A stretch of 64,000 bases of DNA, from assembly GCF_026000775.1 (NCBI RefSeq), contig NZ_AP026830.1, positions 1 through 64,000 on the forward strand, written 5' to 3'. The stretch is from Vulcanisaeta souniana JCM 11219. GTDB taxonomy: Archaea; Thermoproteota; Thermoprotei; Thermoproteales; Thermocladiaceae. Positions within the stretch are counted from its first letter, which is position 1; each line of letters opens with the position of its first letter. This document shows positions 27,145 through 35,991 of the stretch, one piece after another. The notes below the pieces were generated by a model. That model worked only from the letters and a program-made list of their open reading frames with translations, did not search any database and was not told the DNA's origin. The translations under genes were made by a program, and so were the position numbers.

Positions 27145-28227
27145 ATGGTAAGGGGCATTTCGAAGACGTTAATCGTGGGGATTACCATAGTTATTGCCAT
27201 AGCCATAATCGCGATATACTACACCATTCAGTCAAACATCGCTGGGCAAGGCATAAAGAATACTGGCATTGAATACCCAGTTACCGTGACTGATTATCTA
27301 GGTCGTAACATTACCATATACTCCCAACCAACTACCCTGGGCATTATAGCTCCCGACTGCGCACAAATAATATACACGCTCGGCTTTGGAAATAGGGTTG
27401 TACTGATTGACGTATATTCTGAGCAATTACTTCATTACCTAAATGTTACGGTTCCAGGTAATATTACCACGATTAGTTCAATATATGAATCGATACCAAT
27501 AGAGACAATAATAACGGCACACCCATCATTACTATGCGTGGACGCCGGTTTTCAGCCGCAGTTGGAACAGGACACTAATGAATTAAGTGCGGCCGATATT
27601 ACATTAATATTCATAGGTGGTACAGCTAATACCAACATAACTGGTATTGAGAATGATGTAATGCTCATGGCTAAGGCACTTGGTGTTCCGAAGAGGGGTG
27701 AAGAGATAATTAATAACATGAGCGGCGTCATTAATTACGTAAGAAGTAAGGTTTTAAGTGGGCCCAGGGTAACCGTGGCCTACATATCGTGGTACAACCC
27801 AATCTATGCCGCTGGGAACTCCTCATTCGTTGGTTACTACATTGCGATAGCCGGCGGTTACGACCCATTCAGCGGTATGTATCCCACAGTTAGTTCAAGT
27901 CAATTACTCACCGCTAACCCTGATTATATAATTGCCGATAACTTCATGGGTAACTACACGGCAACCCTCCAGGCAATACTCTCAATCCCCGGAATAAACA
28001 GTACAAATGCCGCTATGGAGAACCACATATACATACTTGGGAATTTTGCCGAGAGCCTCATTGAGGAGCCAGGCCCATTATCGGTTTACGGCGCCCTACT
28101 TCTTGCCATGATACTTCACCCGAGTGCATTCGGCCTTAATTCAACGGCTATACCGCATTACATAAGCGCCCAGTGGGTTAATCAATACGTTAGGCCCAAC
28201 CTAAATATCACGTTGAATAATGGGTGA
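27145..28227 (+). CDS. ABC transporter substrate-binding protein (BtuF/FecB type)
   Basis: Membrane-tethered binding protein for corrinoids or chelated iron (360 aa). Residues about 8-28 form an N-terminal anchor (TLIVGITIVIAIAIIAIYYT); the two-lobed periplasmic-binding-protein fold follows, opening with VTVTDYLGRNITIYSQP and the lobe motif ADITLIFIGG; a later ANPDYIIADN strand is typical. The many Asn-x-Ser/Thr sites suit a surface-exposed glycoprotein. Start ATG 27145 is leaderless, just after the palindrome. Its stop overlaps the permease start by 4 nt. Position upstream of a B12-dependent pathway favours cobalamin as substrate; this is inference. Confidence 0.88.
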   Translation: MVRGISKTLIVGITIVIAIAIIAIYYTIQSNIAGQGIKNTGIEYPVTVTDYLGRNITIYSQPTTLGIIAPDCAQIIYTLGFGNRVVLIDVYSEQLLHYLNVTVPGNITTISSIYESIPIETIITAHPSLLCVDAGFQPQLEQDTNELSAADITLIFIGGTANTNITGIENDVMLMAKALGVPKRGEEIINNMSGVINYVRSKVLSGPRVTVAYISWYNPIYAAGNSSFVGYYIAIAGGYDPFSGMYPTVSSSQLLTANPDYIIADNFMGNYTATLQAILSIPGINSTNAAMENHIYILGNFAESLIEEPGPLSVYGALLLAMILHPSAFGLNSTAIPHYISAQWVNQYVRPNLNITLNNG

Positions 28228-29225
28228 TCATCACGGTTAATAACTTAATTGTAAAATTCCTTTGGTTATTCATACCACTATTATTAATAGGTATCATTCT
28301 AAATCTCTTCATTGGTGAAGTGGTAATACCATTGGGGGCTTTATTCGATCTTACAGAGACGTATAGGATCATAATAATAGATATTAGGTTGCCGGAGATC
28401 CTAGCCTGTATAGTGGTTGGTGCCAATTTGGCGATTGCTGGTGCTGTGATGCAGGCAGTGTTTAGGAACCCACTTGCCGAGCCCTACATAACTGGCACCG
28501 CATCTGGGGCATTATTTGGCGCAATACTGGGCTTGCTAATGTATACGTTGTTTAGGGTTGAGGTATCATCGCCGATAATACTAATGCCAATACTATCATT
28601 TCTAGGTGCAATGCTTGCCATCGCAATAGTCGTAACCTTCAGCAGGGGTAATTGGTTATCCCTTATTTTAGCCGGTATTGCTGTTTCAATACTATTCTCG
28701 TCAATAGTCATGATACTGGACACGTACTTATTGACAATAATCCCAACATTACCTGCCATTGTTTACCTACTGTTTGGCACCATAAGTGGCATTAATTGGA
28801 GCGATGATGTCGTGATGTTGAGCGTGAGCCTACCAGTCCTTGCGTACATTGTTATCAGTAGTCGTGAGATTAACCTGTTAATGATTAGTGATGAGGTTGC
28901 CCAGGCTGGTGGTATTAGCCCTAGGTCATTTAGGAACCTGTTAATTGTACTGACTGGGTTATTAACTGCGGTGACTGTTTCATTTACGGGCATCATAGGT
29001 TTCATCGGCCTTGTAACACCTCACCTAACTCGCCTATTGATATCGAGTTCCGATAATTCAAGAGTTATGCCGCTATCAATGATGTCAGGCTCCACAATAA
29101 TGCTCTACGCAAATGTCGTTAGTAAGGTCCTGGTTTCTGGCGTTATTATGCCAATAACGGCTATAACAAGTCTCTTTGGGGTTCCCGTATTACTAGTGCT
29201 GCTTAGGGGTGGTCGCGGTGAGTAA
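28224..29225 (+). CDS. ABC transporter permease (BtuC/FecCD family)
   Basis: Polytopic inner-membrane subunit (333 aa, about 9-10 predicted spans) of a type II importer. Family signatures: IRLPEILACIVVGANLAIAG near 53-72 and GAVMQAVFRNPLAEPYITG near 72-90, and the cytoplasmic coupling stretch GFIGLVTPHLTRLL near 256-269. GTG start within the preceding stop. It pairs with the ATPase, which overlaps its end by 17 nt. Confidence 0.93.
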   Translation: MIITVNNLIVKFLWLFIPLLLIGIILNLFIGEVVIPLGALFDLTETYRIIIIDIRLPEILACIVVGANLAIAGAVMQAVFRNPLAEPYITGTASGALFGAILGLLMYTLFRVEVSSPIILMPILSFLGAMLAIAIVVTFSRGNWLSLILAGIAVSILFSSIVMILDTYLLTIIPTLPAIVYLLFGTISGINWSDDVVMLSVSLPVLAYIVISSREINLLMISDEVAQAGGISPRSFRNLLIVLTGLLTAVTVSFTGIIGFIGLVTPHLTRLLISSSDNSRVMPLSMMSGSTIMLYANVVSKVLVSGVIMPITAITSLFGVPVLLVLLRGGRGE

Positions 29226-29973
29226 TTACGTTGTTAGGTTTGTGAATGCCAGGATTGGTTATGATGAACCAGTAATTAAGGACATTACATTAAGCATACC
29301 AAGGCCGAGTTTAACTACGATACTTGGCCCCAATGGGTCTGGGAAAACCACGCTGCTTAGGGCGATAATAAAGTATGCTAAGGTCTTTGGTGGTTATGCG
29401 TATATCGATGGTAGGGAAATTAGTGAATTATCCATTGGGGATCTACCGAAGTATGTATCTTACTCACCAGCAGAGATTTATTCGCAAATGGCGTTAACGG
29501 TTCTTGATGTAGTCATGAGTTCACGAAATAGTGGTGGTTGGGTGAGCAGGGACGAGGCGATCGCCACCCTTAGATACCTAGGTGTGGGTAATATTGTTGG
29601 TAAGAGGTTTGATGAATTAAGTACTGGCCAGAAGAGACTTACCTTAATAGCTAGGGCATTGTCATCAAAGGCGCCATTACTACTACTTGATGAACCAACC
29701 TCTAACCTAGACCTCGGTAATAAGTACAGGGTTATCCTGATCCTAAGGAGAGTTGTTAGCGATCGGGGAATCACGGTAATAGCCACTGGGCATGATATTG
29801 ACCTGGCGCTGGCCAGTGACTGGGTTGTGGCTATAAGGGATGGGGAGGTAATGGCCATGGGCGCCCCAGGGGATATAATTAATAGCAAGGTTTTGAGTGA
29901 GTTGTATGGAATTGACGTGGAGGTTCTTGAGGTAAATGGATATAGGCTCATTCATGTACGTAATGACAGGTAA
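29209..29973 (+). CDS. ABC transporter ATP-binding protein (BtuD/FecE type)
   Basis: Energises the importer. Walker A GPNGSGKTT near 36-44, Q-loop region around VSYSPAEIYSQ, signature LSTGQKR near 138-144, Walker B LLLLDEPTSNLD near 157-168, and the H-loop GHD near 188. 254 aa. Starts with GTG at 29209 or 29218, inside the permease gene; the three genes form one operon. It is followed by an 85-bp gap and an independent promoter. Confidence 0.94.
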   Translation: MVAVSNYVVRFVNARIGYDEPVIKDITLSIPRPSLTTILGPNGSGKTTLLRAIIKYAKVFGGYAYIDGREISELSIGDLPKYVSYSPAEIYSQMALTVLDVVMSSRNSGGWVSRDEAIATLRYLGVGNIVGKRFDELSTGQKRLTLIARALSSKAPLLLLDEPTSNLDLGNKYRVILILRRVVSDRGITVIATGHDIDLALASDWVVAIRDGEVMAMGAPGDIINSKVLSELYGIDVEVLEVNGYRLIHVRNDR

Positions 29974-30058: not shown

Positions 30059-31897
30059 ATGTTTGGATGGGGCGGACGCGTATTAAGGATTGATCTTTCC
30101 AAAAGGAGGTTTATTGTACAATCACTGGACCCATCACTTGCACAGAATTACATTGGTGGTAGGGGCTTTGCAGCGAAAACCCTATGGGATGAATTACCGC
30201 CAGGTGTCGATCCATTAAGTCCACTTAATAAGTTGATCCTGGCTGTTGGCCCACTGACGGCATTACCAATACCCAATAGTGGTAAGTTACTCGTAGCCTC
30301 TAAAAGCCCGTTGACGGGTGGTTATGGAGATGGCAATATCGGTACGTGGCTGGCAGTTCATATGAGGAGGGCAGGTATTGATATGATGATAATTGAGGGC
30401 AAGGCAGAGAAACCAACATACCTATACATTGAGAATAAGGGTGATGAGTTCAGGGTTGATTTTAATAATGCGGAGGACTTGTGGGGGCTTGATACCTTCA
30501 CTACCGAGGACAAGTTGAAGACTATGCATGGCAGTGACGTTGGCATGGTCCTCATAGGCCCTGCCGGCGAGAGACTCGTGAGGTTTGCAACGATTGTTGC
30601 CCAGAAGGGGCGCAGTGGCGGTAGGCCTGGCATGGGCGCAGTCATGGGCAGTAAGAACCTGAAGGCCATTATCATGAGGGGTCAAGGTGACGTTAAGGTT
30701 GCCGACCCAATGCTTAGGAAGATGGGCGTCGACGCCATAGTGGCAACGAAGTCTAAGCCGAACTACCCATTCTGGATGAGGCAAGGGACAACGTCGACGG
30801 TAGAATGGGCTCAGGAAGCCAGCGTATTACCCACGTATAATTACACCGAAGGCCAATTCGACGATTATGAAAAAATTGGCGGCTTCTCAGTTGAGAAGAA
30901 TAAGGTCATGACAAGGTCATGTCCACAATGCGTTATGGCCTGCGGCCACGTGGTTAAGGACACCGAGAACGAACCCGCTGAGTTGGATTATGAGAATATA
31001 GCAATGCTTGGCAGCAACCTCGGTATTGGCGATCTAGCAAAGGTGGCTCACCTCAATAGGATCGCGGATATGATGGGCATGGACACAATAAGCCTTGGCT
31101 CCACCCTAGGTTTCGCAATGGAGGCTTCGGAGAGGGGCCTCCTTAAGGAGGGGATCGAGTGGGGTGATTATAAGAGGGCTGTTGAAGTTGCTACGGACAT
31201 AGCACTACAAAGAACTGAACTGGGTAAATTGCTTGGTAAGGGCGTTAGGGCTGCATCAATGGTGTTGGGGCCCGAGGCCACTGAATTCGCGATGCATGTT
31301 AAGGGTCTTGAGATAAGTGCGTATGATTGTCACGCGGCGCCCGGCATGGCTTTGGCATTCTCCACGAGTCCCATCGGGGCCCATCACAAGGATGCTTGGT
31401 TAATATCCTGGGAGGTTCAGAGGGGTAGGTTTGATTATACCAGGGAGAAGGCGGAGAAGCTTGTGGAGATGCAGAACATTAGGGGTGGGTTGTTCGAGAC
31501 AATAGTGACGTGTAGGTTCCCATGGGTAGAGGTCGGTCTCGAGCTAGATTGGTACTTCCGCTTATTTAGGGCTGCCACGGGCATGGATATGAACATGGAA
31601 ACCCTAAGCACGATAAGCAATAGAATCTACACATTGATTAGGGCGTTCTGGGTTAGGGAGTACGGCCATTGGGATAGGGCCTATGACACCCCGCCACAAA
31701 AGTGGTTCAAGAGACCACTGAGCAGGGGACCACTTAGGGGTGCAAAGCTTGACTACGATGGTTACCAAAGATTACTTAATTGGTACTATGAATTGAGGGG
31801 CTGGGATGAAAGGGGTATTCCGAGGAAGGAAACCCTGATAAGATTGGGGCTTAATTTTGTTATTCCGCAATTGGGATCTAAGGTTAATCTTAATTAA
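30059..31897 (+). CDS. aor: Tungsten-dependent aldehyde:ferredoxin oxidoreductase
   Basis: Oxidises aldehydes to acids and reduces ferredoxin, using a tungsto-bispterin and one [4Fe-4S] cluster (612 aa, normal length). N-terminal domain: WGGRVLRIDLS, YIGGRGFAAK near 31-40, SKSPLTGGYGDGNIG; pterin contacts around GRSGGRPGMGAVMGSKNLKA near 182-201; cluster ligands in CPQCVMAC near 289-296 with the fourth cysteine probably near 481 (IVTCRFP). The neighbouring B12 pathway handles acyl-CoA carbon skeletons, so a role in amino-acid or aldehyde fermentation is plausible but inferred. Own leaderless promoter. Confidence 0.93.
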   Translation: MFGWGGRVLRIDLSKRRFIVQSLDPSLAQNYIGGRGFAAKTLWDELPPGVDPLSPLNKLILAVGPLTALPIPNSGKLLVASKSPLTGGYGDGNIGTWLAVHMRRAGIDMMIIEGKAEKPTYLYIENKGDEFRVDFNNAEDLWGLDTFTTEDKLKTMHGSDVGMVLIGPAGERLVRFATIVAQKGRSGGRPGMGAVMGSKNLKAIIMRGQGDVKVADPMLRKMGVDAIVATKSKPNYPFWMRQGTTSTVEWAQEASVLPTYNYTEGQFDDYEKIGGFSVEKNKVMTRSCPQCVMACGHVVKDTENEPAELDYENIAMLGSNLGIGDLAKVAHLNRIADMMGMDTISLGSTLGFAMEASERGLLKEGIEWGDYKRAVEVATDIALQRTELGKLLGKGVRAASMVLGPEATEFAMHVKGLEISAYDCHAAPGMALAFSTSPIGAHHKDAWLISWEVQRGRFDYTREKAEKLVEMQNIRGGLFETIVTCRFPWVEVGLELDWYFRLFRAATGMDMNMETLSTISNRIYTLIRAFWVREYGHWDRAYDTPPQKWFKRPLSRGPLRGAKLDYDGYQRLLNWYYELRGWDERGIPRKETLIRLGLNFVIPQLGSKVNLN

Positions 31898-31938: not shown

Positions 31939-32568
31939 ATGAGCGATAGTTGTCGTTTACCGTTATTTGCAGACTGCAGGGAAGTTGATGATTCGATTAA
32001 ATGCCCTGGCGACAGCGGTTATAGCGTAATACCGCTATTTGGCAAGAGGGTTAGGGTACGTAAGGACTCAGCACCAATAAGGCTTATGGGATGCTTGGAC
32101 GAACTCTCAAACATAGCTAATAACGCTAGGCTTAACTTCAGTGGTAATGCCGTGGGTGAATTGGCCTCGATAGTGATGGCACTGGCAATGCAATTGAATG
32201 CCTACCTGGTTCAGGGCAGCGATGATAGGTTAAACAAGGTGAGGAGTATTGAGGATCTATTGATGGATAGGATCATGGATCTATGCCGAGGATTTAAGGG
32301 GCCACTTGGTTGGGTGATTGCGACGACCCCCGAGCTCCAGATCCTCGACACACTAAGGGTCAAATTAAGGGAGTGCGGTAGGATCGCGTCCTCAATGCTT
32401 GAGGAGTATTCATTATCGGTAAATGTTATCAGCGTCATGAATCATGCCGATAAGCTGGTGGCCCAGGCAATGTATTGCCTGGGTGGTAAGGTGTTTAGGT
32501 CCGTGGACGATGCTGTGAACTACCTGCTGGGTAGTACAACAAATGAGAACAGATTTATTAGCAAATAA
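31939..32568 (+). CDS. PduO-type ATP:cob(I)alamin adenosyltransferase (divergent)
   Basis: Makes adenosylcobalamin, the cofactor of the adjacent mutase. The fold signature is visible: GDSG near 25, GKRVRVRKDS, MGCLDELSN near 53-61 (the family's G-x-x-DEL), a helical bundle, and RVKLRECGRIASSM plus MNHADKLVAQAMYCLGG standing in for the usual RRAER and NRLSD segments. The N-terminal ATP motif is altered (PGDSGYS rather than TGDxGTT), so the assignment relies partly on context. 209 aa. A TATA-like CTTATATAAATAT (about 31898-31910) lies upstream. The mutase gene begins 17 bp later. Confidence 0.78.
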   Translation: MSDSCRLPLFADCREVDDSIKCPGDSGYSVIPLFGKRVRVRKDSAPIRLMGCLDELSNIANNARLNFSGNAVGELASIVMALAMQLNAYLVQGSDDRLNKVRSIEDLLMDRIMDLCRGFKGPLGWVIATTPELQILDTLRVKLRECGRIASSMLEEYSLSVNVISVMNHADKLVAQAMYCLGGKVFRSVDDAVNYLLGSTTNENRFISK

Positions 32569-32585
32569 TTATTTGTAAATTATTA

Positions 32586-34256
32586 ATGGGAAACACGGAG
32601 AAAATTAAGGAAAAGTACGACGAGTGGGTTAGAGAATTCCTATTGCCTACACTTAAGAAGATACCTGAGTGGAGAAAGTTTGCCACATTATTTGGCATTG
32701 ACATAAAGCCCCTCTATACACCGCTCGATGTTAGGGACGATTACCTGAGTACACTTGGCTTCCCCGGCGAATACCCATTTACCAGAGGCATATACCCTAG
32801 TATGTATAGATCGAGGCTATGGACGTTTAGGGAGTACTCAGGTTTTGGCTCGCCTGAGGACACCAATAGGAGGTACAAGTTCCTCATTTCCCAGGGACAG
32901 ACAGGCTTAAGTGTCGCCTTCGACTTACCAACGCAGTTAGGTCTTGACCCTGATCATGAACTTGCATACCCTGAAGTTGGTAAAGTGGGTGTATCAATAC
33001 CCGAGGTCGCCTCAATGTCAATACTTTTCGACAATATCGACATCAGAAAAATAACAACCTCATTCACAATAAATGCGACAGCAGCCGAGATACTGGCTAT
33101 GTACATAACGGTCGCCGAGAGTAGAGGTATTGATAAGGCTGTGCTTGATGGCACTATTCAAAACGACATACTCAAGGAATTCATAGCCAGGAACCTATAC
33201 ATATACCCACCACTGCACTCAATGAGATATACAACGGACATAATAGCATACACATCAAAGAACCTACCCAAGTGGCACCCAATAAGCATCAGTGGTTATC
33301 ACTTCAGGGAGGCCGGCGCCACGGCTGTCCAGGAACTGGCCTTCACACTGGCCGACGCCATTGAGTACACCAATTGGGTCATAAATAGGTGGAAAATGAA
33401 CGTTGACGACTTTGCGTCAGGCCTATCCTTCTTCTTCGCAGCAACCACGAACCTCTTTGAGGAGGTTGCCAAGTTCAGGGCAGCCCGTAGGTTATATGCA
33501 AGGATAATGAGGGAACGATTTGGCGCCAATAAGTCGGAGTCCATGAAAATGAAGTTCCATGTACAGACATCCGGAGCTGCATTGACCGCCCAGCAACCTG
33601 AGGTTAATATTATTAGGACTACGATACAGGCATTGGCCGCTGTACTAGGTGGTGCCCAATCACTTCATGTTAATGCCTATGACGAAGCACTTGCGTTGCC
33701 TACGGAGAAGTCGGTTAAGCTAGCACTGAGAGTTCAACAAGTGATAGCCTATGAGAGTGGTGTTATTGACTCGATAGATCCATTGGGTGGTTCGTACTAC
33801 ATTGAGTGGCTTACGGACATCATTGAGGAGGAAACCATGAAGATCATTGATTATGTGGATAGGCTTGGCGGCATGACGAAGGCTGTGGAAATCGGTTATC
33901 CACAGAGGGCCATTGCTGAATCTGCATATCAGTACCAAAGAATGGTCGAGGAGGGTAAGATTAGTATTATTGGGGTTAATATGTTTAGGGAAGAGCGGGA
34001 GCCCAATATTGAGCTTCATAGGGTTGACCCAGTATCTAGGGAGAGGAGTATTAGGCGTGTTAGGGAGGTTAGGGAGAACCGTGATAGGGAGGCTTGGGAA
34101 AGGGCAATCAGGGAGTTGAGGAGAACGGCTGATGGGGAGAACGAGAACGTATTTCCATACATACTAAACGCCATTAGGGCTAGGGCTACCATTGGTGAGG
34201 TATCGGGGGTGCTACGTGATGTTTGGGGCGAGTATAGGCCTCCAAGTATTTACTGA
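32586..34256 (+). CDS. mcmA1: Methylmalonyl-CoA mutase, catalytic (large) subunit
   Basis: Interconverts (R)-methylmalonyl-CoA and succinyl-CoA by an adenosylcobalamin radical mechanism. 556 aa TIM-barrel subunit without the B12 domain, the archaeal split arrangement. Motifs: FPGEYPFTRGIYPSMYRSRL near 57-77, the substrate-binding FREYSGFG, GLSVAFDLPTQLGLDPDH near 103-120, and QTSGAALTAQQPEVNIIRTT near 326-345. No Shine-Dalgarno precedes the ATG; it is probably translated from the adenosyltransferase mRNA. The cobalamin-binding subunit follows. Confidence 0.96.
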   Translation: MGNTEKIKEKYDEWVREFLLPTLKKIPEWRKFATLFGIDIKPLYTPLDVRDDYLSTLGFPGEYPFTRGIYPSMYRSRLWTFREYSGFGSPEDTNRRYKFLISQGQTGLSVAFDLPTQLGLDPDHELAYPEVGKVGVSIPEVASMSILFDNIDIRKITTSFTINATAAEILAMYITVAESRGIDKAVLDGTIQNDILKEFIARNLYIYPPLHSMRYTTDIIAYTSKNLPKWHPISISGYHFREAGATAVQELAFTLADAIEYTNWVINRWKMNVDDFASGLSFFFAATTNLFEEVAKFRAARRLYARIMRERFGANKSESMKMKFHVQTSGAALTAQQPEVNIIRTTIQALAAVLGGAQSLHVNAYDEALALPTEKSVKLALRVQQVIAYESGVIDSIDPLGGSYYIEWLTDIIEEETMKIIDYVDRLGGMTKAVEIGYPQRAIAESAYQYQRMVEEGKISIIGVNMFREEREPNIELHRVDPVSRERSIRRVREVRENRDREAWERAIRELRRTADGENENVFPYILNAIRARATIGEVSGVLRDVWGEYRPPSIY

Positions 34257-34273: not shown

Positions 34274-34690
34274 ATGATAACGCAACTAATAATGCATATG
34301 CCTAAGCCTAAGATCATTATTGCTAAACTTGGCCTTGACGGCCATGACAGAGGCGCTAAGGTGATTGCTAGGGCATTGGCTGAGGCTGGCTTTGAGGTTG
34401 TTTACACGGGTATTCGGCAGACGCCCAGCCAGGTTATTGAGACGGCAATTCAGGAGGACGCTAAGTTAATTGGCGTCAGTATATTGTCGGGTTCTCACAT
34501 GGAGCTTGTAGGTGAGTTAATGAAGATCATGAGGGAAAGGGGCGTGAATATTCCAGTGCTTGTTGGTGGTATAATACCTCCTGAGGATAGGGATGCCTTG
34601 CTGAAGATGGGTGTTGCCGCTGTGTATGGGCCTGGTACACCGCTTAGGGAAATAATTGATATCGTAAAGAAACTTGTGGGTGCTTCCTGA
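34274..34690 (+). CDS. mcmA2: Methylmalonyl-CoA mutase, cobalamin-binding (small) subunit
   Basis: Supplies the lower-face histidine ligand to B12. The DGHDRG motif (DxHxxG) lies near 22-27, followed by the Rossmann-like GVSILSGSH near 74-82 and LVGGIIPPED near 105-114. 138 aa from ATG 34274; ATG 34295 or 34301 (MPKPKIIIAKLG) would remove a few non-family residues and is equally likely. The stop codon overlaps the start of the next gene by 1 nt, so translation is coupled. Confidence 0.96.
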   Translation: MITQLIMHMPKPKIIIAKLGLDGHDRGAKVIARALAEAGFEVVYTGIRQTPSQVIETAIQEDAKLIGVSILSGSHMELVGELMKIMRERGVNIPVLVGGIIPPEDRDALLKMGVAAVYGPGTPLREIIDIVKKLVGAS

Positions 34691-35991
34691 TGGATTTAGG
34701 GGACTTACTGAAGAGGGCCCGGAGTTGGGATAAACTCGCCATTGCTAAGTTAATAACTCTCGCTGAGGAGGGCATTGAGTTGCCATTGGAGAATCAACGT
34801 AGAAGCCACGTAATTGGCGTAACTGGTCCTCCAGGTGCAGGTAAGAGTACATTAATATACTCAATGGCTCGGAAAATACCACAGGACAGGAGAATAGCCA
34901 TCCTCACCATTGATCCCTCTAGTCCATTCACCGGCGGTTCATTTATGGGTAATAGGATTAGGATGCAGGAACTCACCTCCAGGCCCAACATATACATTAG
35001 GAGTATGGCCACGAGGGGTATCCGCGGAGGACTTAACTACGCAACAATAGCCGCAATAAACGTACTTGAGTACGCCGGTGCTGATTATATATTCCTTGAG
35101 ACCGTTGGGGCTGGTCAATCGGATACTGATGTTAAGTATGTTGCCGATACAATACTTGTCCTGGTGCCGCCACTCTCTGGTGATGAGATCCAGGCACTTA
35201 AGAGTGGGCTTATGGAAATCGGTGATATCTATGTAGTCTCCAAATCCGATAATCAAGTTGCCGAATCTACGTATAGGGACTTGATGGCCATGATTGATAT
35301 GGTGAAGGAGATAAAGAGTGATTCCTGGAAACCCATCGTGGTTAGGGTGTCCGGTCTGTATGGTTATGGTGTTGATGATTTAATTAAGGTAATTGACGAT
35401 AGGTTTAGGGAGTTAATGAATAATGGTAAACTGAATGAGATGCTAATCAGCAGGAGGGTGCTTGAGATGAGGCTTTACGCCTATGACTTACTTGAGAAAA
35501 GTCTCAGCGAGAGAAGGGATTTGGAGAAGGAGGTTGTGAATGGTAGGTTATCACCACAGGAGGCTGCAAGGAGACTACTTAATGCCGGCAAGCCGAGACT
35601 TGATCATGTGGCCATCGCCGTTAAGAACCTCGATAGCGCCGTCGAGAAATTCAGGAGATTGGGACTTAGGGTTAGTGAACCAATGATTGTTGAAGAGCAA
35701 GGTGTTAAGATCGCAATGGTGTGGCTTGGTAATACAAGGATTGAGTTACTTGAGCCGCTTAATCCCGGATCTACCGTGGCTAGGTTCTTGGAAAGCAGAG
35801 GTGAGGGTATTCACCATATTGCCCTTGAGGTTGATGACCTCGATGAATTCATTAAGACCGCTAAAGGCTCTGGCTTAGTAATCATTGGTGGACCAAGTAA
35901 GGGCGCTGAGGGTGTTGTTGTATTCATACACCCCAAGAGCCTAAATGGCGTCCTCCTCGAATTGGTAAAGCGCCAGGTACTTAATGAGTGA
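34690..35991 (+). CDS. Fusion: MeaB/ArgK-type G-protein chaperone + methylmalonyl-CoA epimerase
   Basis: One 433-aa reading frame joins two partners of methylmalonyl-CoA mutase. Residues 1 to about 285 are the G3E P-loop GTPase that protects and reloads the mutase: Walker A GPPGAGKST at 46-54, DPSSPFTGG at 75-83, GNRIRM at 87-92, switch ETVGAGQSDTDV at 137-148. The base-specificity motif is SKSD at 184-187 rather than NKxD. Residues about 303-430 are a complete epimerase of the glyoxalase/VOC fold: LDHVAIAVKNLD with H306, IELLEPL with E352, GIHHIALEV (H375/H376) and VLLEL with E424, the four metal-ligand positions. The epimerase provides the (R)-isomer for the mutase. No frameshift or stop separates the halves. 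Confidence 0.93.
   Translation: MDLGDLLKRARSWDKLAIAKLITLAEEGIELPLENQRRSHVIGVTGPPGAGKSTLIYSMARKIPQDRRIAILTIDPSSPFTGGSFMGNRIRMQELTSRPNIYIRSMATRGIRGGLNYATIAAINVLEYAGADYIFLETVGAGQSDTDVKYVADTILVLVPPLSGDEIQALKSGLMEIGDIYVVSKSDNQVAESTYRDLMAMIDMVKEIKSDSWKPIVVRVSGLYGYGVDDLIKVIDDRFRELMNNGKLNEMLISRRVLEMRLYAYDLLEKSLSERRDLEKEVVNGRLSPQEAARRLLNAGKPRLDHVAIAVKNLDSAVEKFRRLGLRVSEPMIVEEQGVKIAMVWLGNTRIELLEPLNPGSTVARFLESRGEGIHHIALEVDDLDEFIKTAKGSGLVIIGGPSKGAEGVVVFIHPKSLNGVLLELVKRQVLNE

Follow-up and report, generated by a model that had tools for sequence, protein, structure and literature searches.

A MeaB-type G protein and a methylmalonyl-CoA epimerase joined in one reading frame in Vulcanisaeta and Thermocladium

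Results

Organization of the mutase locus

The window, that is, the whole 64,000-nucleotide stretch of Vulcanisaeta souniana JCM 11219 DNA that we analyzed, belongs to a genome assembled as a single contig of 2.43 Mb. It carries genes for both subunits of a methylmalonyl-CoA mutase, followed directly by one frame in which a MeaB-type G protein is joined to a methylmalonyl-CoA epimerase. The genes of this row are as follows:

27145..29973, + strand: FecCD/BtuCD-type ABC importer (binding protein, permease, ATPase), a conserved neighbour
30059..31897, + strand: aldehyde ferredoxin oxidoreductase (PF01314/PF02730), a conserved Vulcanisaeta neighbour by synteny
31939..32568, + strand: divergent cobalamin adenosyltransferase-like gene (PF01923, 22.1 bits, just below the cut-off of 24)
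32586..34256, + strand: methylmalonyl-CoA mutase large subunit (PF01642, 707 bits; TIGR00641, 750 bits)
34274..34690, + strand: methylmalonyl-CoA mutase small (B12-binding) subunit (TIGR00640, 167 bits)
34690..35991, + strand: fused gene, MeaB-type G protein (N-terminal) and methylmalonyl-CoA epimerase (C-terminal), 433 residues plus stop

In Vulcanisaeta, the row runs from the importer through the oxidoreductase, the adenosyltransferase-like gene, and the large and small mutase subunits to the fusion, and then continues with DUF2070 and DUF2153 genes. In those Vulcanisaeta loci that reach that far, the aldehyde ferredoxin oxidoreductase stands after the importer and before the mutase genes. 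The place of the adenosyltransferase-like gene (31939–32568) before the mutase is also conserved in the genus, and its product may be a divergent PduO-type enzyme. As had been noticed from the letters alone, the small-subunit gene overlaps the fusion by 1 nt (TGATG), its stop codon TGA occupying 34688–34690 and the ATG of the fusion starting at 34690. In Thermocladium, the large-subunit gene lies ~30 kb from the pair formed by the small subunit and the fusion (G017:C16:71428-72687 and 102118-103683). Of 41 relatives, 15 have the mutase, and these are the very genomes that bear the fusion. In those of them that the two censuses described below covered, neither a further MeaB nor a further epimerase was found.

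Domains and motifs of the fused protein

The sequence-only reading had described an uninterrupted 433-codon frame holding a P-loop G protein and an epimerase, and the domain searches confirmed it. The frame at 34690–35991 (+ strand) starts with ATG, stays open over 433 codons, and contains both domains. The MeaB half matched PF03308 at residues 34–274 (E 3e-72, above the Pfam cut-off) and TIGR00750 at residues 34–297, with 255.1 bits against a curated cut-off of 240.75. The epimerase half matched TIGR03081 at residues 303–426, with 127.4 bits against a curated cut-off of 114.95, and it also exceeded the Pfam cut-off. Both families were matched by all 11 intact fusions. The parts of the protein are:

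34690..35427, + strand: N-terminal helices and G domain, residues 1–246 (PF03308/TIGR00750; best Foldseek match MeaB, 8dpb_A)
34825..34851, + strand: Walker A motif GPPGAGKST, residues 46–54, conserved in the 11 fusions
34912..34965, + strand: switch I, DPSSPFTGGSFMGNRIRM, residues 75–92, mapped to the MeaB residues of PMC9974510 (D75 = MeaB Asp92, N88 = Asp105, the Mg ligand, and R91 = Arg108)
35098..35118, + strand: switch II, ETVGAGQ, residues 137–143 (E137 = MeaB Glu154, Q143 = Gln160); ETVGAGQSDTDV begins at residue 137 of the fused protein
35167..35205, + strand: switch III, PPLSGDEIQALKS, residues 160–172, mapped to the MeaB residues of PMC9974510 (D165, Q168, and K171 = MeaB Asp182, Gln185, and Lys188)
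35239..35250, + strand: base-specificity motif SKSD, residues 184–187, replacing NKxD (alignment)
35428..35577, + strand: C-terminal helices, residues 247–296, in the place of the MeaB dimerization arm (helices in the model)
35578..35595, + strand: linker of ~6 residues, 297–302 (alignment; pN/pS)
35596..35988, + strand: methylmalonyl-CoA epimerase domain (VOC fold), residues 303–433 (TIGR03081; Foldseek match 3oa4)
35605..35607, + strand: H306, metal ligand position (= human His50)
35743..35745, + strand: E352, fourth active-site position (S. coelicolor Q60, human Glu)
35815..35817, + strand: H376, metal ligand position (= human His122)
35959..35961, + strand: E424, metal ligand position (= human Glu172)

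The AlphaFold model of the fusion (mean pLDDT 89.8, pTM 0.76) has a long helix at residues 247–274, short helices at 276–283 and 289–296, and the first epimerase strand at 303. When the model was searched with Foldseek, MeaB/MMAA structures came first (8dpb, 8gju, 2qm8), followed by methylmalonyl-CoA epimerases at 1.2–2.1 Å. The C-terminal half has the VOC fold, with 3oa4 matched at 1.4 Å rmsd and further matches to the human, S. coelicolor, and M. tuberculosis epimerases. The orientation of the two domains in the model is unreliable because in its input alignment (A2) the tails of stand-alone MeaBs were misaligned over the epimerase columns. In the clean alignment of the fusions (A1), the letters of the linker vary freely and its length is constant.

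Conservation of the active sites

The functional residues of MeaB (PMC9974510) map to S53, D75, R91, E137, Q143, D165, Q168, and K171 of the fusion, and all are present. Taken letter by letter, Asp105 and NKxD are replaced by N88 and SKSD. The same Asn at the Mg ligand position is found in 11 of 38 stand-alone archaeal MeaBs; at the base-specificity motif, all 11 fusions have SKxD, all 38 stand-alone MeaBs have NK, and human MMAA has TKSD in the alignment. Since both positions vary in the wider family, N88 and SKSD do not bar membership in MeaB/MMAA, and, judged from these alignments, SKxD can be taken as a marker of the fusion clade. Thus, the earlier observation that SKSD replaces NKxD held and proved clade-specific, but the altered nucleotide preference suggested from it appears doubtful: with the Lys and the base-reading Asp retained and TKSD in human MMAA, SKSD does not imply a loss of guanine preference.

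In the epimerase half, the four positions proposed from the sequence alone (H306, E352, H375/376, and E424) were found as described. It is the second histidine, H376, and not H375 that aligns to the metal ligand His122 of human MCEE. H306, E352, H376, and E424 do not vary among the 11 fusions and the 24 stand-alone archaeal epimerases sampled. Where S. coelicolor has Glu43, the fusions have Ile or Val and the stand-alone archaeal enzymes have Val, Ile, or Ala. Comparison of the window with its nearest relative gave a dN/dS of ~0.08 for the G domain, 0.06 for the arm, and 0.16 for the epimerase; other pairs approach saturation. Both halves are under purifying selection, with the catalytic and metal-binding residues kept.

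Distribution of the fusion

Among 41 related genomes, the two domains stand in line in all 12 genomes of the window's genus and in all three of a second genus, which is Thermocladium by name (L036, L046). Protein identity to the window is 75–91% in the named Vulcanisaeta relatives and 46–55% in Thermocladium. The survey of archaeal genomes called for by the sequence-only reading found the frame uninterrupted in 11 genomes of these two genera (9 of the 12 Vulcanisaeta and 2 of the 3 Thermocladium-like genomes), including three single-contig genomes (the window's own, G004, and G008). The fusion is therefore real and conserved in the hot-spring archaea Vulcanisaeta and Thermocladium.

The remaining four copies (L010, L011/L034, L014/L035, and L015/L046) come from incomplete assemblies and have frame breaks. 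An interruption (stop or frameshift) within residues 285–303 had been named beforehand as the result that would speak against a single protein. One occurs at 288/290 in the L034 draft (G002), where the mutase, aldehyde oxidoreductase, and DUF2070 genes are broken too, and none occurs in the intact relatives. For G002, G003, and G020, draft error is the likely cause, because these drafts also have a broken mutase, aldehyde oxidoreductase, or DUF2070 gene or several breaks within the fusion. The Vulcanisaeta distributa JCM 11217 draft (L006:1501-2808) has a single extra Gly at each of five Gly sites of the fusion, probably an assembly error of that draft.

How rare is this arrangement? Our census covered 398 genomes of Thermoproteota, of which 126 had an epimerase above the TIGR03081 cut-off. 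The window's genus accounts for 10 of these, nine in frames of at least 429 codons and one in a split draft. All the other above-cut-off epimerases lie in their own frames of 129–232 codons. The two Thermocladium copies scored just below the cut-off (112.5 and 106.7 bits) in frames of 435 and 459 codons. Epimerase-like matches in a sister genus (L016–L019) were rejected; they represent a distant VOC protein, with Gln at the first ligand position in the two checked.

The corresponding MeaB census found 156 genomes above the cut-off, and among the matches listed, only two other MeaB frames exceeded 400 codons (L099 and L102). The first was rejected as a fusion, its length being due to an upstream reading-frame overlap. 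The second (L102:106-1599, + strand; genome G399, family f14 of Thermoproteota) is a 498-residue fusion of MeaB (PF03308 at 19–280) to a CobA/CobO/BtuR corrinoid adenosyltransferase (PF02572 at 327–498, 221 bits). It represents a second C-terminal partner on a MeaB chaperone, in which cofactor synthesis is joined to cofactor delivery.

Unfused counterparts in bacteria

In Ilyobacter polytropus and Acetoanaerobium noterae, found on the bacterial side of our search, which consisted of a plasmid collection only, the mutase large subunit, mutase small subunit, meaB, and mce stand in the same order as four separate genes; the annotation of Ilyobacter leaves 22 bp between meaB and mce. By analogy, these unfused rows show how simple the path to the fusion could have been: the loss of a stop codon. 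A Rhodococcus fascians plasmid matched both domains in one alignment piece that is annotated as two genes. The MeaB half clusters with the MeaBs of crenarchaea, apart from the two bacterial rows, so that its recent acquisition from bacteria is unsupported. The epimerase tree is poorly resolved.

Discussion

A putative chaperone–epimerase protein serving the upstream mutase

Both halves of the protein belong to known families, and the new element is the join itself; we found no description of a MeaB–epimerase fusion in the open-licence literature. From the families, we infer its GTPase, chaperone, and epimerase activities and its dimer geometry. The reading that the sequences favour, with a probability of roughly three in four, is a single bifunctional chaperone–epimerase protein that serves the mutase encoded just upstream. 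The N-terminal G domain would bind the B12 domain of that mutase and use GTP to gate the loading and removal of adenosylcobalamin, and the C-terminal epimerase would interconvert (S)- and (R)-methylmalonyl-CoA for it. As the epimerase begins ~6 residues past the MeaB dimerization helices, every dimer of the chaperone would hold a pair of epimerase domains. With one start codon for both, the chaperone and the epimerase would be made at a fixed 1:1 ratio, and any binding of the chaperone to the mutase would bring the epimerase with it. Against this reading stand N88 and SKSD, the missing carboxylase discussed below, and the ~30 kb between the large-subunit gene and the fusion in Thermocladium.

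The known systems provide the frame for this reading. The MeaB dimer binds the B12 domain of the mutase and rotates one protomer, and its GTP site is completed by switch III of the partner (PMC9974510). MMAA behaves similarly (PMC10356863), and the human epimerase is a dimer (PMC6525113). The fusion shares with MeaB/MMAA the G-domain motifs, the switch I–III residues, the C-terminal helices, and the gene row with a mutase, its expected client, which adjoins it in the window. It differs from these ordinarily stand-alone proteins in the epimerase added after the C-terminal arm, in SKxD, and in Asn88. The epimerase half resembles MCEE, of the VOC superfamily, in its full-length domain, in all ligand positions, and in its closest folds (3oa4, 6bu2, 6wf6, and 3rmu), whereas MCEE is ordinarily a free protein of ~130–150 residues. 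The mcmA-mcmB-meaB-mce rows of I. polytropus and A. noterae have the identical order, but there meaB and mce are unfused. According to a 2023 paper, metallochaperones of this kind typically occur as stand-alone proteins, IcmF being the notable exception (PMC10481361). IcmF is the other recognised case of this chaperone fused to a pathway partner, but its G domain lies inside the mutase, whereas in Vulcanisaeta the mutase is encoded separately and the chaperone is joined to the epimerase instead. Membership in IcmF was rejected: the fusion scored 104.9 bits against a cut-off of 1500, in the G-domain part only, and the mutase subunits are separate genes.

Could the epimerase also, or mainly, be made as a free protein, by an internal start or by proteolysis at the linker, so that the fusion amounts to an operon without a stop codon? 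Some Vulcanisaeta copies lend themselves to this reading. Four (L004, L006, L008, and L009) have a Met right before PRLDH (residue 301), at the place where a stand-alone epimerase would start, and in L003–L006 an ATG at 299 is preceded by an AGGAG-like stretch. These codons are possibly a relic of the former epimerase start or a working internal start. However, they are not conserved: the window, L002, and L007 lack an ATG near the linker, the only candidate of the window in residues 283–302 is a GTG at 283, inside the arm, and the AGG AGG runs are ordinary Arg codons. We therefore regard a free epimerase as unlikely.

A further reading, a lasting assembly of mutase, chaperone, and epimerase that passes methylmalonyl-CoA directly between active sites, seems to us similarly unlikely. 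It would accord with the short linker of constant length, with the conservation of the fusion across two genera, and with the 1:1 oligomeric assemblies of human MMAA and mutase (PMC10356863). On the other hand, MeaB acts through large protomer rotations (PMC9974510), which a fused dimeric epimerase would have to allow, and free diffusion may suffice. Of the two proposals made from the sequence alone, tethering of the epimerase to the mutase complex is plausible, and channelling of methylmalonyl-CoA is so far unsupported.

Source of methylmalonyl-CoA

The usual producer of (S)-methylmalonyl-CoA is a biotin-dependent propionyl-CoA carboxylase. A search for biotin carboxyltransferase (PF01039) across the family to which the window belongs, 25 genomes in all, found none, and the genome of the window itself gave no match to biotin carboxylase (PF02785), while the controls matched. 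The usual carboxylase route thus appears to be absent, which leaves the need for an epimerase without an explanation. None of the own-genome crotonases was named a methylmalonyl-CoA decarboxylase among the NCBIfam matches listed, which proves little. One idea is that the adjoining aldehyde oxidoreductase might make methylmalonate from its semialdehyde, and that activation of the methylmalonate would give both epimers. That a stable mutase–chaperone–epimerase complex hands over methylmalonyl-CoA in a biotin-independent route to succinyl-CoA, possibly fed from methylmalonate semialdehyde through this oxidoreductase, is a speculative and rather improbable scheme.

The missing carboxylase also bears on a reading in which the C-terminal domain is kept mainly as a dimerization scaffold lending the chaperone stability at high temperature, its epimerase activity being minor or lost. 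MeaB and the human epimerase are both dimers, and no carboxylase that would require an epimerase was found in the family genomes or in the window's own. Nevertheless, none of the active-site ligands varies and purifying selection acts on the domain, which makes this reading very improbable. A sequencing or annotation artefact, to which the split copies in some incomplete relatives might point, or a pseudogene has practically no chance and is rejected on purifying selection and on the eleven uninterrupted copies from different assemblies, three of them single-contig genomes; three of the four broken copies sit in drafts whose neighbouring genes are broken in a similar way or whose fusion is interrupted in several places.

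Implications

With its epimerase partner, the fused chaperone represents a second architecture beside IcmF. The absence of the carboxyltransferase from mutase-bearing genomes turns the origin of their methylmalonyl-CoA into a testable question. The fusion also offers a natural construct, from a hyperthermophile, for two questions: does the chaperone remain on the mutase through its catalytic turnover, and do the mutase, the chaperone, and the epimerase act together in a complex?
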